Assembly (NCBI GenBank): GCA_037893245.1
Contig: JBAIAA010000804.1
Span: 682,001-746,000, forward strand
Length of the DNA stretch: 64,000 nucleotides
Reading direction: 5' to 3'
Source: Crossaster papposus
Lineage: Eukaryota; Echinodermata; Asteroidea; Velatida; Solasteridae
A model generated the notes under the pieces. It made no database searches. It was given only the letters and a program-made list of their open reading frames with translations, and was not told the origin of the DNA. Position numbers and translations under genes: made by a program. This document shows, piece after piece, positions 2,494 through 56,321 of this stretch (the stretch's first letter is position 1; every line of letters starts with the position of its first letter).

Positions 2494-3192
2494 AGAAAAC
2501 TCGGTGCTTACGGTAAACGTATTTCACGCGTTAGCGAGGAATTTCAATCTCTGAGCATGGGTACATCCCGTAACTAAGGCTTACAGGGTTTGCGCAAAAT
2601 TTTTCTGATAGCGCGGTTAGCGGAAAATGGTGACCGTAAGTGCGGAATTCTGTGGTTAGCAGAGCCAAGAAATTGGGCCCAGTTTTGTAAAATTGGTTCA
2701 TATTTAAAAAAATACACATAAATTGCCACTTCTGCAAGAATGAACATTCATTTTTGTATAACAACTGTAGCAACAGCTTCAATAAACTTCAATGTTTTCA
2801 TGGCCTTACAAAAGAAAGATCACGAACGAACTAGTAGTAGTAGTAACGAACACAATAATCGGACTCGGCCCATGACCTAAAGTATCTGATGTACTGTACG
2901 GCTGATTGTTCAGTGACCCGTGAGCTCATTCTAGTTACATGTTGGTTGGATAGGTACATACTGTACGTGTTCCCTTACAAGCACGTACTCATTTATACGC
3001 CACATGTGGATAATCAATTATGAAATCATCCTGGTCTTCTTCAATTGATGGTCTTCTTCGGTTTTCGATGGTCTTCTACTTGGGTAGTTCTGGGAGTTTT
3101 TGAAACTTGAAATCTGTTTCCATTATTCGCGTTTTTTATCGGGTAGCCGCGTTCCCAAACTACATTGTACCTGTATGCACACCCTTACTTAC

Positions 3193-4578
3193 CCTTATGG
3201 AAACCACCGCCTCTGGTTGTATGAGCCGTGATGGATGATGCTGGAGATTAAACCACAGTCGAGGCGAGAGAAATAAGACATCATTTTCTGGAAATAATTC
3301 ATGTTCTCCATCCATTCTCTCCTTGTCATTTGATACATCTGCAACATTTATATCATTGCCATCTTTTAAATCAGAGGCTGTCCCAAACCGTTTCTGATCA
3401 ATGACAAACACTTGGGCAAGATGGGCAGATTCTTTGGCAGTCGTGGCAGATTCGGTATCTGCCGCCTTGGGGCTTTCAGGAAATTTTTGATCATCCAGAC
3501 TGCCATTTATTTGCTGTCCTGAACCTGGTTGATCAACCAACTCTCCGACTCTGTCGCTTTCTCCTGGGCTTTCCCCTGGGCTTTCCCCACGAGGAATGGA
3601 CACAACCACCCAACTGCCATTTAAGGCACAGAGTTCAATGAGAGTGGCTTTAGTGACACCAACTCTTAATTCCATCTCACACTGCTCCTGGGTGCATGTA
3701 AGGTGATTGACAGTTGCAGTCAAGTGGGTCGAGATTTTGGGAATAATCACTGGTCTCAAGTAAAGTATGTTAGGGACTTCTTTTTGACAGGCAAATTCAG
3801 ATATGATAAATGGCTCTGGAAACCCATCATGAAAACCATTGCTCAAGGCTTTACCGTCAATCTCCTTTTGTCCACCGAGTAAATTATCTACATCAGAGTG
3901 CCCACTGTCATGACTGTCATCCATTTGTGTGATTACGATAGAGGTATTGACAGATATGATACCCTGCATTACGGGTTCACATTCAAGAGCAATCAGGTCC
4001 TGGTAATTTGCGAGAGTGTGAATCTCATCCCTACTAAACTTGTGAATCACAGGTGCAAGGAATTCATCACCAGAACGAACCAGGACCTTTTGCTGGCATG
4101 TCGACACCAGCAGCTCTGTGCTGAAAAGACGATTTCGTGCCCACTCGTAACACCTGGCTGACCTTGCCCCAAACACAACTTTGGTCAGAGGAAAAGCCTT
4201 AACTACACGTATGAAGACATCCTCCGAGTCGGTAATCCCGTAATGGCTGTGGAACCGCTCAGTGGCATACAACGTCAGGATCCCAGGACTTTCTGACACC
4301 TGGCACAGCGAAATCGACCTTCGAACCAGCTCATCACTCAGAATGTGTAAACAAGCGAACAGTTCGACATCACGGCCATATTCTACGGACGTACCCGATG
4401 CCGATCGAATTAAGGACACAATAACGTAATTATCAAACTTTTCCCCAAGCAATAGGTGGGATGCACCTTTTGATATGCCCAGATGGAGTGGGTTATGATT
4501 GACGGCAAAGTTAAATCGGGAAAACTTCGCCGGAATTTTATCCGGTTTTCCTCCTCCGACATCAGCCATATCAGCCAT
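3193..4578 (-). CDS. PEX6: PEX6-like peroxisomal AAA-ATPase, exon 1 (partial gene)
   Basis: PEX6 pairs with PEX1 at the peroxisome membrane to extract ubiquitinated PEX5 receptor using ATP. The frame reads 462 codons from the ATG at 4578 (MADMADVGGG; a second ATG at 4569 is possible) to a donor, AAGG|GTAAGT, at 3193/3192, in phase 0. It covers only the N-terminal region, not the AAA modules. Resemblance to vertebrate PEX6, judged by eye: LECEPVMQGIISVNTSIVI resembles human LETRPALQGLLGPGTRLAV, and LFLSPRLWFNLQHHP fits the later LAFNLGCDP segment. A single long first exon is also the vertebrate PEX6 arrangement. The middle is acidic and serine-rich with a short GESPGESPGES repeat. PEX1 or another type II AAA N-domain protein is the alternative. 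Downstream exons lie below 3192 and were not recognised. Confidence 0.72.
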
Positions 4579-4680
4579 CCCGCCCGCGCGCTCGCACAAT
4601 CGATATGTTGTGGGCGGTGTAGGCAGGTTCCTTTGTGTGATGAAACGTAAACAACACTAGGTCGTTATACATTTATTGGA
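4579..4680 (-). promoter_or_regulatory. Likely 5' UTR and promoter of PEX6-like gene
   Basis: Short GC-rich stretch (CGCCCGCGCGCTCGCAC) directly upstream of the minus-strand start codon, falling off to AT-rich DNA by about 4660. No TATA box was seen. Position and base composition are the only evidence. Confidence 0.3.
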
Positions 4681-7002: not shown

Positions 7003-7657
7003 AATTAAAAAAGATAATACAATTTTAAGATCGTAATTTAGACTTTAGCATCACTGTGTATATGCTGTGAAGATATATTTGTTTCTAATGGGAAGGCTAG
7101 GGTGTGACGTGTATGGTGCATACATGATCGACCCACATGGATTTTGATTTTTATTTCAAATAGAAAGATAGGGTGTGACAAGTTCACTACGCCGTGACCC
7201 ATATTAAAATGTGTCGAGCGGCTATTAAAAAAAAAAAAGACCTCCTCCTTCCTTCTAAAAAAAATCTTGACGCTAAACATGTTTGTTTTATTATTTGGCC
7301 TAAAGGAGGTTCTCGAGGCTCTTACGTAATTAGGGTTGGATTAGGCTTGAGGAATTGAATAACCGTGGATTCGTAATTGTTACAAATGTAGGCAAGATAA
7401 AAACCGTTCCGAATCCACACTTTACTGAAGATTCGTAGATACGAATCCACACTTATTGTCCAAAGCGTTGATTCGTAGATACGAATCCACACTTTTAACA
7501 ATAGCGTGACGTCATAGCAATGGTTTAAATATCTATATACATTGGCTCTCCCGAGATTCAAAATTATGTCTAAAGACCTTGATATTTAAACCAAAAGAGA
7601 ATGTCATAATGTTTGACTGATATTAAAGCATTTAGTTATTTAGTTATTTATATAAGC

Positions 7658-7966
7658 AGGTCAATTTATGACAAACAACCACCTGACCCACCACAAATTG
7701 CAACAAAAGGTTTCCCAGTGGTTTTCATTCCTACTGGATATATTGATCAACAACAACAAAAGTCTACAAAAATCTGGCCTCCGGAAATGGGTTAAAACTG
7801 GGTCATTTCCAAGATTGCCGCCGCCGGGCTTCAAAATCACTAAAACAGTTCTTCTTTACTAATTGTGATAGAAACATAATTGTTGGTTCTAGTCCATGGT
7901 TTTAAGGGGTGGGTAATCCACTGGTGTCATTTAGTTTCAGATCTGGGCAGTATTTAACCTGAAATC
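7658..7966 (+). repeat. Left terminal inverted repeat of 5.5-kb element
   Basis: Matches the reverse complement of 12875-13182 over its whole length. Differences are mainly substitutions and a few small indels, concentrated around 7738-7765 and the outermost 25 bases. Confidence 0.9.
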
Positions 7967-8648
7967 CAAGATGGCGGCAAAAGATTAGGGGTGTAAAATA
8001 AATAAATTGCATAATTTGCTTTGGTGGACGTGGTGTCGCCTGAGAGCCACGCGGAACTCGCTTGTATAATTACCTATCATTATGACAACTCGATACGCGT
8101 TTGTGATTAACGTTTGGTTGCTGGTCTGCTGGACTGATCATCGATAAGTCAGCGATGTACGCAGATCGCAATATCTAGTTTTATGTCTTATTCAGGTTTG
8201 AAGAATGAGCGCTCCTGAGATTTCCAAAGATAGGTGTCTATAATTATTTGCAAGAAGAGGCTTGGGGATGGAGGTGACGTTGTGCAAATTCGTCAGAAGG
8301 GCGCTGATGGCATCAATGCAGCCAGTGTTCAGAGAGGTGACAACGTTGATGTTGTGGCTGGATGCAAGGTACACACGGACTGTCGTAAACGGTACATAAA
8401 TCAACATTACATCCTGAATCAACAGAAGAAACAAGGACCATCCAAACCCTCCATGAAGCGAAGTTTACGTGTGTTGACCGGACCTTTCGACAGCAAATCT
8501 GACTGCTTGTTTTGTGGGACCACAGTGCACTTTGGAAGTTCTGACTACGAGTTTTGTGAAGACCGACAACTTTGCCAAAACCATTCGGGGGTGCTGTGAG
8601 AATTGGTCCGATGATTGGACATTCTCAGTGAAAGGGCGGATTAAGTAC

Positions 8649-8924
8649 TGTAACGAAAAGCGTTGTCTGGGGTCGACACACACACAGGAAGGAAACTGAC
8701 ACAAGTATTCTGTGGTTTCGGTGATTCTAAGGTCGTTTTAATGCACTCCTTCTCTGGTCACAAACACTGACATGACGCTTACCGCTATCGCGCGGCCCTG
8801 GAACTGGTCTAAACCGGTTCGGCGTATGCGCTATCCAGAACGGGTTTCCCTGGCGTACCGTCAGGGGATTACACCATGGAATCGCTCTAGTGCCCTCTAT
8901 CGGCCAACCGGCACAAACGTTACA
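8649..8924 (-). repeat. LTR (3' end of the minus-strand element)
   Basis: Nearly identical to 10224-10500. Termini TG...CA; adjacent to the G-rich tract on the internal side. Confidence 0.85.
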
Positions 8925-9129
8925 CAGCCCCCCACGAAGACCTTGTTTGCCCCCAAACAAGACGGTGGGCGGCCGCCGCACACCTGGAAGACCCGCACCG
9001 GAAAGCGCACAACGCCAACAATTACACAACAATTTACATTACAAAAAAATGAAAAGTTCAAAAGTTCCCGCCTAGTAGGTGGGAGGTGGCCTGAAACTGC
9101 TCCCAGAATTCCGGTGGAATGTCTCTCCA

Positions 9130-9530
9130 CGCCTGGGCCGTCTCCCCGAGGCGCGTGCGTGGTCCGACTCCGTCGCGCATGCGCAGTCCGACTCTGTGCG
9201 CATGCGTGGTCCAACTCCGAGGCGCATGCGTGGTCCGACTCCAAGGCGCATGCGTGGTCCGACTCCAAGGCGCACGCGTGGTCCGCCAGACGACCCCTAG
9301 CTCTGGCACACCCCCAGCTCCGGCACACCCCCAGCTGTTAAGACTTGACTGCAACTGCGACTGTGTCTGGCTCCTGTGACTGGCTCCTGCGACCGGTGCC
9401 TGCGACTGCGCCTGGCTCCTGTGGCCGCGACTGTAACTGCCTCTTGCGACTACGACTGGCTCTTGTGACTGATCTGACTGTGACCGTGACTGGTTTCCTC
9501 TGACTGCAACTGGTCTCTGCGGCTAACGAC
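9130..9530. repeat. Degenerate tandem repeats inside LTR element
   Basis: Units built on GCGCATGCGTGGTCCGACTC (9160-9290), then CTGGCTCCTGCGACTGCG-like units (9350-9530). They explain the overlapping open frames on both strands here. Confidence 0.75.
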
Positions 9531-9794
9531 TGGCTTAGAGAGCGTGGGCGTCCTGGCGAGGCCCCGCCCCCGCTGCGCCGACGGACCCGGCTCGGAATCG
9601 TTCCGAGTGGAACGAAACGTCTGCCGCGCCGCCGTTCACAGCATGGGCCGGGCCCCCCCGGACTCGGTTTAATTCCTGCAGAAGATCCAGAGAATGTCTG
9701 GACGAGGCCCCGCCCCCCACTGCATCCCGCGGGCACAGCTCGGAATCGCCCCGTGTGGAGCGAGACGTCTGCTGCGCCGCCGTCTACAGCATGG

Positions 9795-9798
<4 letters not shown>

Positions 9799-9831
<33 letters not shown>
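9799..9831. repeat. Poly-C tract inside LTR element
   Basis: About 33 consecutive cytosines, preceded by two related copies of a GAGGCCCCGCCCCC-containing segment (9550-9650 and 9700-9790). Length may be unreliable in assembly. Confidence 0.85.
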
Positions 9832-9832
<1 letters not shown>

Positions 9833-10223
9833 ACACAAGCCTGGTAGCGGACCCGGACAAATATGGGGAAGGGCGCCCTCTCTCCAAATCGGAGTGGACG
9901 CACTAAAGCCCCCAGCCATTGGCGCATGTCCCGAAATTCCCCGCTATCCTTCTCTAACTCCTCCCCCAGGAAACATCCAGACTCCCAGGTCCCCATAAGT
10001 ACCTCCCTAGAGTTCCCCAAAACATCCCTAAAGAAGGCCTCTAACTCCGCCAGCGTGATGTACGGAATGCACCGGCTCCCGGGCCCCGCTCCCCGGGCCC
10101 GCACTCCAGCTCGCCTCCCCGCCGCAGGGCGAGTCGGCCGCCACACCATCATGGTTTCGTGAAAACATGAAACAACTTCACCTGGTTTCCTTAGTCCTCC
10201 TGCATGCCAACCGCTGCCACTAA

Positions 10224-10500
10224 TGTAACGAAAAGCCGAGCGTTGTCTGGGGTCGACACACACACAGGAAGGAAACTGACACAAGTATTCTGTGGTTTCG
10301 GTGATTCTAAGGTCGTTTTAATGCACTCCTTCTCTGGTCACAAACACTGACATGACGCTTACCGCTATCGCGCGGCCCTGGAACTTGTCTAAACCGGTTC
10401 GGCGTATGCGCCAGAACGGGTTTCCCTGGCGTACCGTCAGGGGATTACACCATGGAATCGCTCTAGTGCCCTCTATCGGCCAACCGGCACAAACGTTACA
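10224..10500 (-). repeat. LTR (5' end of the minus-strand element)
   Basis: Nearly identical partner of 8649-8924. Flanked outside by GTAC, the target duplication. Confidence 0.85.
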
Positions 10501-12874
10501 GTACTATGGTGGAAATCTTCATGCAGCTGACTGCATAATCATCATCGGTGTAGTGTCCATTTCCGCACTGGGCGTGATGTACCAGTGCACTTCCGGGATG
10601 GACCAGAATCAACAAGTAGGAAATCTGGCCGTCGGAGAGATAGTGATCAAGAGCAGTCATTCTCCAGAATGTGTTCGTATCTTGAGATGAATGGTGATGA
10701 GGAACAGATGACTGTTTTGTACCTTCGGGGCAAAATTGTCCATACACTGCCAACTACTATCTGAAGAACAAAATGAAAGAAAGATATGGGGACTCCATTT
10801 ATATTGCTGAAGGAGAGGTCTAAATGACATAGTTACATTCAGGGAGAAAACATCACACATACTCCGGGCTTACTACAAAGGTGCACAGCGAGAAGGAGAT
10901 GAGAGGCACAGAATAAAGCCATTATCCAGACCGCAGCAAGGCTGATCAAGAGTGATACTTAAGACAGATGTACCATCTGTCACTGATCACTACCCAAAAT
11001 CAGAACAACTTGAACTTGACTCTTCACTCAGGCATTCCTTCCAGATACACTTCAAAATATGTTGAACTGTCTGTTCGTTGGGGAAAAACGCAACGTAAAG
11101 TGGCTGGTATTGGACAAGCTATATAGTACAAGCAGTCAGACTTCGGGCTGTCATTGCACCATGCACCCACAGATTGGTCTCGTCGTGGTTCATCACATAC
11201 TCGGTCGAAATTCCTGGTGGAGACCCTGTGTAATATGGGGTATGGCTTGTCGTATGGTGAAGTACTGCGGTTTGAAAAGAATGCGGCAAGCTGTGTCACA
11301 CCCGATTTGCTGCTTAAAGAAACAGGCGCTGACCTATCAGTGTTGTTTGCCGGTGACAATGTAGATCACATGACATCATCACCATTGATGGAAAAGGTAC
11401 CTTTCACGGAATGGGCATAATAGCTGGATTGACTACTGGTAGAAAAACAAGACTTCTCGCGACAAGGCAAAAGATTTCAGAACTGAACATTGTACAGATG
11501 TCAACAATTGATATCAAAGAATATCGTTTCGCCACCCATGTTCTTCGAAACATTAAGTTCCGAGACCTTCCAGATCTCCGAGTCTGTGACGTCTTCTGGG
11601 AGCTATCCTTTCATTTCAAGCAGACACTGAGTTCCAGGTTGGCAGGGGATGATGCACATCCTTCATCAAGGGCAGACACATCCTGGCGCATCCTCCATTC
11701 TGTATTTGCCAATGATTGATGTACCCAGGCGACAAGTCTTGCATTCTGTCTACTTCTTCCTGTCCAACATGGCCATATGCATCAGACACCATGTCCCTCT
11801 TGTGGTCACGTTCGATCAACCCCTGTACTGGAAAGCTGCCGAGATCATCAGTGCTGCACCAGAGAATAGCCATTTGAAGGGGATCGTACTTAGGCTGGGT
11901 ACTTTTCACACGTTCATGAATCTACTTGGAGCAATAGGCACGTTGATGACGGGTACAGCTACAGGACTCCAAAACATCCTGGAACTGGTGTACAGTGAAA
12001 ATGCTGTATAGTTCATATCGTCACCGACTGGACACCACAACTACCTGAAGTCTGCTTACCTCTACGCACAAGAATTGGCTGAACTGGAAAACAACCACCC
12101 AGATGTGTATGAGAAGTTTCAAGATGGCTACAATGTGACCCGGCGAACAAACCAGTTTTGGGCAGGCCTCAGCTGTGATCTAGCTAGTCATTGAACACTC
12201 ACTCATGAGATCACTAAAAAGCACCGACGGCTTGACTCATGATGGCAGTAAGATGACAGAGGAACAGCGAGCATTGTGGACAATATCAGCCCCCATCTGA
12301 GGTCAACGTCGCCAGTGCAGGACTTCAACGACCTCACATACGCAACAAGCAAACAGCATAAAGAAGCAACGGGTGCCAGAATTGAAAAAGACGCATCCGA
12401 CCTCTCGAAGATAAGCACAAAGCTGAGCGCATTTTCAGCCTTCTCCTCGGATCTCGTATTAAGAAATGTCATCAATGGTATCGTGGCGAACGAAGACATT
12501 AACGTGCATGAATATGAATATTTTGGAAACAAAATCATCGAGATAATGATTGAACAACCTGTGTTTTCCTTCTCCACCCAGAGGAAAGAAAAGCCAAGAG
12601 TACCCCGGGAAATTCATCTAATATATCCCAGGTATATCCCAGACAGGTGATTTGTCACTTGAGGAATTGGTGAGGTATGAGCTCAGTACATACCCACCAT
12701 CCCTCATTCCCTCTATAGGGCCTAAAAGGACAACAAGATCTTGAGGAAGGCCGACAAACCTCAACTAGTTCACATGGTTTATCATATGAGAGATGCACAA
12801 AAGTGACCCAACCATACCATTCAAAGATCATTGCCTTTCGAGAAAGGGGATATAATTATTATATAGGCCTATAT

Positions 12875-13182
12875 TTCAGGTTAATACTGCCCAGATCTGA
12901 AATTAAATGACACCTGTGGATTGCCCACCCCTAGGCTAAAACCATGGACTAGAACCAACAATTATGTTTCTATCACAATTAGTGAAGAAGAGCTGTTTTA
13001 GTGATTTTGAAGCCCGGCGGCGGCAATCTTGGAAATGACCCAGTTTTAACCCATTTCCGGAGGTCAGATTTGTTTAGACTTTTTTTCTGTTCGGATCAGT
13101 AGGCCTATATCCAGTAGGAATGAAAACCACTGAGAAACCTTTTGTTGCAATTTGTTGTGGGTCGCGTGGTATTTCGACCTGT
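12875..13182 (-). repeat. Right terminal inverted repeat of 5.5-kb element
   Basis: Reverse-complement partner of 7658-7966. It ends CGACCTGTC followed by TATA. Confidence 0.9.
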
Positions 13183-13190
13183 CTATAATA

Positions 13191-13509: not shown

Positions 13510-56321
<42,812 letters not shown>

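Follow-up and report, generated by a model that had tools for sequence, protein, structure and literature searches.

A dead transposon with long terminal inverted repeats in Crossaster papposus, probably of the Academ kind

A stretch of 64,000 nucleotides from Crossaster papposus (contig JBAIAA010000804.1, positions 682,001 to 746,000), called the window below, contains near its left end a pair of long inverted repeats that enclose the remains of a gene. The locus raises the question of whether this gene is the enzyme of a DNA transposon and, if so, whether that transposon belongs to a superfamily already described. We consider it likely that this interval represents a dead cut-and-paste DNA transposon of the Academ kind, with terminal inverted repeats (TIRs); AcademX, the nuclease-bearing lineage, is the best fit. 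We infer the Academ assignment from features of the protein family, together with published Academ traits. The element is real and probably a member of a superfamily that has already been described.

Terminal inverted repeats and the broken gene between them

The two TIR arms (Table 1) are about 310 bp each and show 94-96% complementarity across three ungapped arm pairs; blastn aligns them at 90.7% identity over 300 bp. Of the 325 columns in a global alignment of 7655-7966 with 12874-13183, 281 are matches and 28 contain gaps, so that identity over the ungapped columns is 94.6% (16 mismatches in 297). The local alignment score, 454, compares with a best score of 30 among 300 mononucleotide shuffles. 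The ends common to both repeats are CAGGTC / GACCTG, at 7657 and 13181. No third copy of the TIR was found within the window by blastn (word 11, E 1e-3). The original prediction had described inverted repeats of about 310 bp bracketing a decayed gene; these are real, and their earlier coordinates were off by one or two bases. The element measures 5,529 bp with its nested insert, and about 3.67 kb once that insert and its 4-bp duplication are subtracted.

The protein blocks named in the original prediction occur where it had placed them. They follow in order along the plus strand: HTDCRKRY (8372-8395), DNVDH (11355-11369), TFHGMG (11399-11416), DQPLYWK (11814-11834) and LGTFHTFMNLLG (11895-11930). 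Because these blocks occupy more than one plus-strand frame, the gene is broken by frameshifts and stops, and the present copy is unable to make a working enzyme. For each strand of 10501-12875, the lengths of the five longest stop-free stretches were added up and compared with the same sum in 300 dinucleotide shuffles. The plus-strand sum, 589, was matched by none of the shuffles (mean 389, maximum 553), while the minus-strand sum, 504, was matched by 11 of the 300.

The pieces of the gene are listed in Table 1. Judging from its Cys/His motifs, the N-terminal piece is a possible zinc-binding module. The piece that carries FDQPLYWKA and LGTFHTFMNLLG provides a candidate second Asp at 11814-11816 and a candidate Glu at either 11982-11984 or 11997-11999. 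Weaker scraps of sequence up to about 12800 may also be part of the gene.

The coding remnant sits wholly between the TIRs, in a single orientation, and fills most of the intervening space; the sole other feature recognised there is the nested insert. With a single pair of long TIRs enclosing the whole remnant, the open reading frame (ORF) is plausibly the element's own gene, as had been proposed, and we regard it as probably so.

The nested insert, which the original prediction did not mention, splits the gene. It is 1,852 bp long, a third of the interval, and it has the direct terminal repeats of TG...CA type and the short target duplication of a long terminal repeat (LTR) element. Its two LTRs are one substitution and two short indels apart. 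Five stop-to-stop ORFs of at least 150 aa lie within it, none with a Pfam match at E 0.01. It appears to be a young, non-coding LTR element, inserted late into a transposon older than itself, since its LTRs, with one substitution, have diverged far less than the TIRs, with 16 mismatches in 297 ungapped columns. The insert is GC-rich and contains internal repeats as well as a run of C.

Two short sequences were noted at the left TIR. CCAAGATGGCGGC lies at 7966-7978, at the inner edge of the repeat, and resembles a YY1 site. A similar sequence, CCAAGATTGCCGCC, lies inside the repeat at 7809-7822. Both are possibly parts of a promoter.

Table 1. Positions of the element, its parts and other annotated features, numbered from the first letter of the window.
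Feature	Position	Strand	Evidence or remark
Whole element, best limits	7655-13183	+	TIR alignment, boundary scan
Left TIR	7657-7966	+	Arm pairs, blastn, pairwise alignment
Right TIR	12873-13181	-	Arm pairs, blastn, pairwise alignment
Candidate target site duplication TATA, left	7651-7654		Boundary scan
Candidate target site duplication TATA, right	13184-13187		Boundary scan
N-terminal coding piece, Cys/His motifs (HTDCRKRY, CLFCG)	8234-8599	+	ORF listing, motif search
Nested LTR-bearing element, splits gene	8649-10500		Repeat search, blastn, alignment
LTRs of nested element	8649-8924 (276 bp), 10224-10500 (277 bp)		Direct repeats, TGTAACG...CGTTACA
GTAC flanking nested element	8645-8648 and 10501-10504		Short target duplication
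Coding piece carrying FAGDNVDH and the first candidate for a catalytic Asp (11355-11357)	11127-11420	+	ORF listing, motifs; putative catalytic role
Coding piece in a different frame, carrying GKGTFHGMGII	11357-11719	+	ORF listing, motifs
Coding piece with FDQPLYWKA and LGTFHTFMNLLG	11631-12011	+	ORF listing, motifs, low-confidence model
Coding piece beyond in-frame TAG	12012-12194	+	ORF listing
C-terminal coding piece	12252-12650	+	ORF listing; weaker scraps follow to about 12800
ORF of a non-LTR retrotransposon, with endonuclease and reverse transcriptase	37326-41468	-	

Comparisons of the protein

The pieces of the protein were compared with four libraries. Eight pieces had no Pfam match above the curated cut-off, four pieces had none in NCBIfam, six pieces had nothing below E 0.057 in PHROGs, and one read-through had nothing below E 0.42 among PDB sequences. 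Pfam also returned no helicase or THAP match for the pieces or the read-through.

Weak rows from these searches were set aside. A P-type ATPase row for the N-terminal piece (PF00122, E 0.0009) reached 19.2 bits, below its cut-off of 28.1, and was taken as chance, as were an E1-E2 ATPase row in the joined read-through (E 0.0034, below the curated cut-off), TIGR01116 (E 0.02, 13 bits against a cut-off of 703.4) and PF06357 (E 0.0066, 16.7 bits against a cut-off of 22, over 12 residues). The Pfam rows PF09356 and PF22567, the NCBIfam row NF041724, three PHROGs rows (E 0.057-0.34) and two PDB sequence rows (E 0.42 and 1.7) were likewise dropped.

The block-bearing ORF seems to belong to a multi-copy invertebrate protein family. 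In this family, which is common in animals but has no name, an XPG-like nuclease and a Cys-rich tail presumably come after the core, and bivalves presumably have many copies. Relatives were sought in several other collections. Four protein-piece scans of viral contigs gave 3, 43, 10 and 7 pattern stretches, but tblastn bore none of them out. In the same contigs, each of two degenerate DNA patterns gave 0 stretches. A pattern scan of prokaryote genome contigs gave 2 stretches, both rejected as chance because many stops interrupt the reading frame in which the motif lies. Phage records gave no match. The literature excerpts examined contained neither an Academ transposase alignment nor text naming the protein blocks.

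Fold models were made for two fragments, 11634-12191 and 11127-11417, with AlphaFold2 in single-sequence mode. In the model of 11634-12191, residue 61, which is the Asp of DQPLYWK, comes immediately after a strand (56-60), and Glu 117 sits within a helix (109-120), with 55 residues separating the two. This succession of strand, Asp and Glu-bearing helix is the one expected of an RNase H-like DDE/D core, though the model is of low confidence.

Assignment to Academ and the alternatives

In the history that we propose, the product of the ORF would have been a transposase, with Cys/His modules for DNA binding at its N-terminus and a core of the RNase H-like DDE/D type. This enzyme would bind the TIRs, excise the element and insert it at a target, where a short duplication would remain. 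An internal deletion reaching the right TIR may have removed the gene's 3' part, which would encode an XPG-like nuclease. The LTR element inserted later, and the present copy would be mobile only if an intact relative supplied the enzyme. Restoring a lost nuclease part of perhaps 1.8 kb to the 3.67 kb or so that remains would bring the element near the Academ mean length.

Published traits of the superfamily come from two papers. In a mollusc survey, Academ is a DDE/D superfamily, third by number after TcMar and hAT; its curated elements in bivalves have a mean length of 5,565 bp, and among molluscs its ORFs are nearly restricted to bivalves (PMC10294476). According to the other paper, target duplications are 3 or 4 bp for AcademX and 9 or 10 bp for AcademH, and their length seems tied to the encoded helicase (AcademH) and nuclease (AcademX) (PMC10045372).

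The present copy has terminal inverted repeats, as an Academ (AcademX) element does. Like AcademX it is several kb long and has a single long ORF, and the likeness possibly extends to its DDE/D-like blocks and its target duplication. A boundary scan for exact matches over 13 offsets found TATA on both flanks when the ends are set two bases outward, at 7655/13183, and 4 bp lies within the published AcademX range. A match of at least 4 bp arises by chance in 6.4-6.7% of 20,000 random AT-rich pairs at 4 offsets; for pairs from all positions the figures are 2.4% (4 offsets) and 7.8% (13 offsets). The same scan found no exact duplication of 9-10 bp at the ends, where a decayed one would escape it, and no TTAA duplication.

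Several results weigh against the assignment. None of Pfam, NCBIfam, PHROGs or PDB gave an accepted match. AcademX carries a nuclease, and no nuclease domain was seen in this decayed copy (Pfam, pieces and read-through). Without its insert the element is about 1.9 kb shorter than the Academ mean in the bivalve elements of the survey. The near restriction to bivalves given there also fits less well with a protein family that is presumably widespread in animals. Across all 13 offsets scanned, a match of at least 4 bp occurs in 18.6% of AT-rich pairs (3,721 of 20,000). Because random pairs match this often, the TATA duplication is weak evidence and may well be chance.

The fold models belong with these objections. 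Both are poor, with a mean predicted local distance difference test (pLDDT) score of 41.7 for 11634-12191 and 48.9 for 11127-11417. In the former, residue blocks 51-60, 61-70 and 111-120 average 45, 55 and 45; in the latter, the first Asp (that of DNVDH, residue 77) lies in a stretch below 50. Foldseek returned 134 matches at E <= 10 for the 11634-12191 model and 0 at E <= 0.001, and neither a transposase nor an RNase H is among the 50 matches listed. Because the models are poor and no Foldseek match is significant, an RNase H-like fold is not demonstrated.

The best surviving alternative, itself unlikely, is that this TIR transposon comes from a different lineage of Academ or from some other DDE/D superfamily already described; AcademH and Kolobok are examples. 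In its favour, many superfamilies share TIRs and blocks in a DDE/D-like order. AcademH shares the TIRs and is a lineage of the same superfamily, but neither the 9 or 10 bp duplications published for it nor a helicase was seen in the present decayed copy, over 13 offsets and in the pieces and read-through respectively. Kolobok, also a TIR DNA transposon of animals, duplicates TTAA. It differs from the present element, which has no TTAA at its ends over the 13 offsets and no THAP match in its pieces or read-through.

More doubtful again is a TIR transposon whose own DDE/D transposase comes from an unnamed superfamily and which moved by the same cut-and-paste steps. The repeated, unnamed animal protein family would then be the transposase of an undescribed TIR superfamily, with a domain make-up unlike any named one, a proposition to which we give the same small weight. 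The long TIRs enclosing one ORF and the lack of accepted library matches are what such an element would show. The missing matches say little, however, because the searched libraries are not known to contain Academ, and the presumed core-plus-nuclease make-up and bivalve abundance suit a described superfamily. The original prediction, which spoke of an undescribed class of DNA transposon, is unsupported on this point: nothing found separates the element from described superfamilies. The least probable reading is a host gene, or a fragment of one, that an unrelated element enclosed within its TIRs, either as cargo or through nesting by chance. In favour of this reading, the ORF is linked to the TIRs in a single copy. 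Against it, the remnant runs in one orientation across most of the space between the TIRs, where the nested LTR element is the one other feature recognised.

Should the family prove to be Academ, as we favour, the gain is mainly one of annotation: animal genes of this kind, now labelled "uncharacterised", would be transposon proteins, and gene sets should be masked for them. Otherwise, the classification would still lack a widespread animal transposon superfamily.

Other features of the window

A stop-to-stop open frame of 498 aa on the minus strand (3160-4656) has no Pfam match at E 0.01. About 460 bp beyond the right end of the element, 13646-13786 contains a 68-nt inverted repeat with a 5-nt spacer and 94% complementarity, and 13969-14128 is a tandem array of a 20-bp unit, AATTTTTCTTCATAAAATTC.

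The ORF of the non-LTR retrotransposon (Table 1) is split within its reverse transcriptase domain, with positions 1-106 of the RVT_1 profile in one piece and 111-205 in the other. The domain is split by an insert of 1.26 kb (38315-39573) that has inverted ends and TTAA on both sides. Its arms, at 38311-38332 and 39556-39577, are 22 nt long and 95% complementary, and it contains an ORF with a THAP domain. We take this insert to be a Kolobok-like element.

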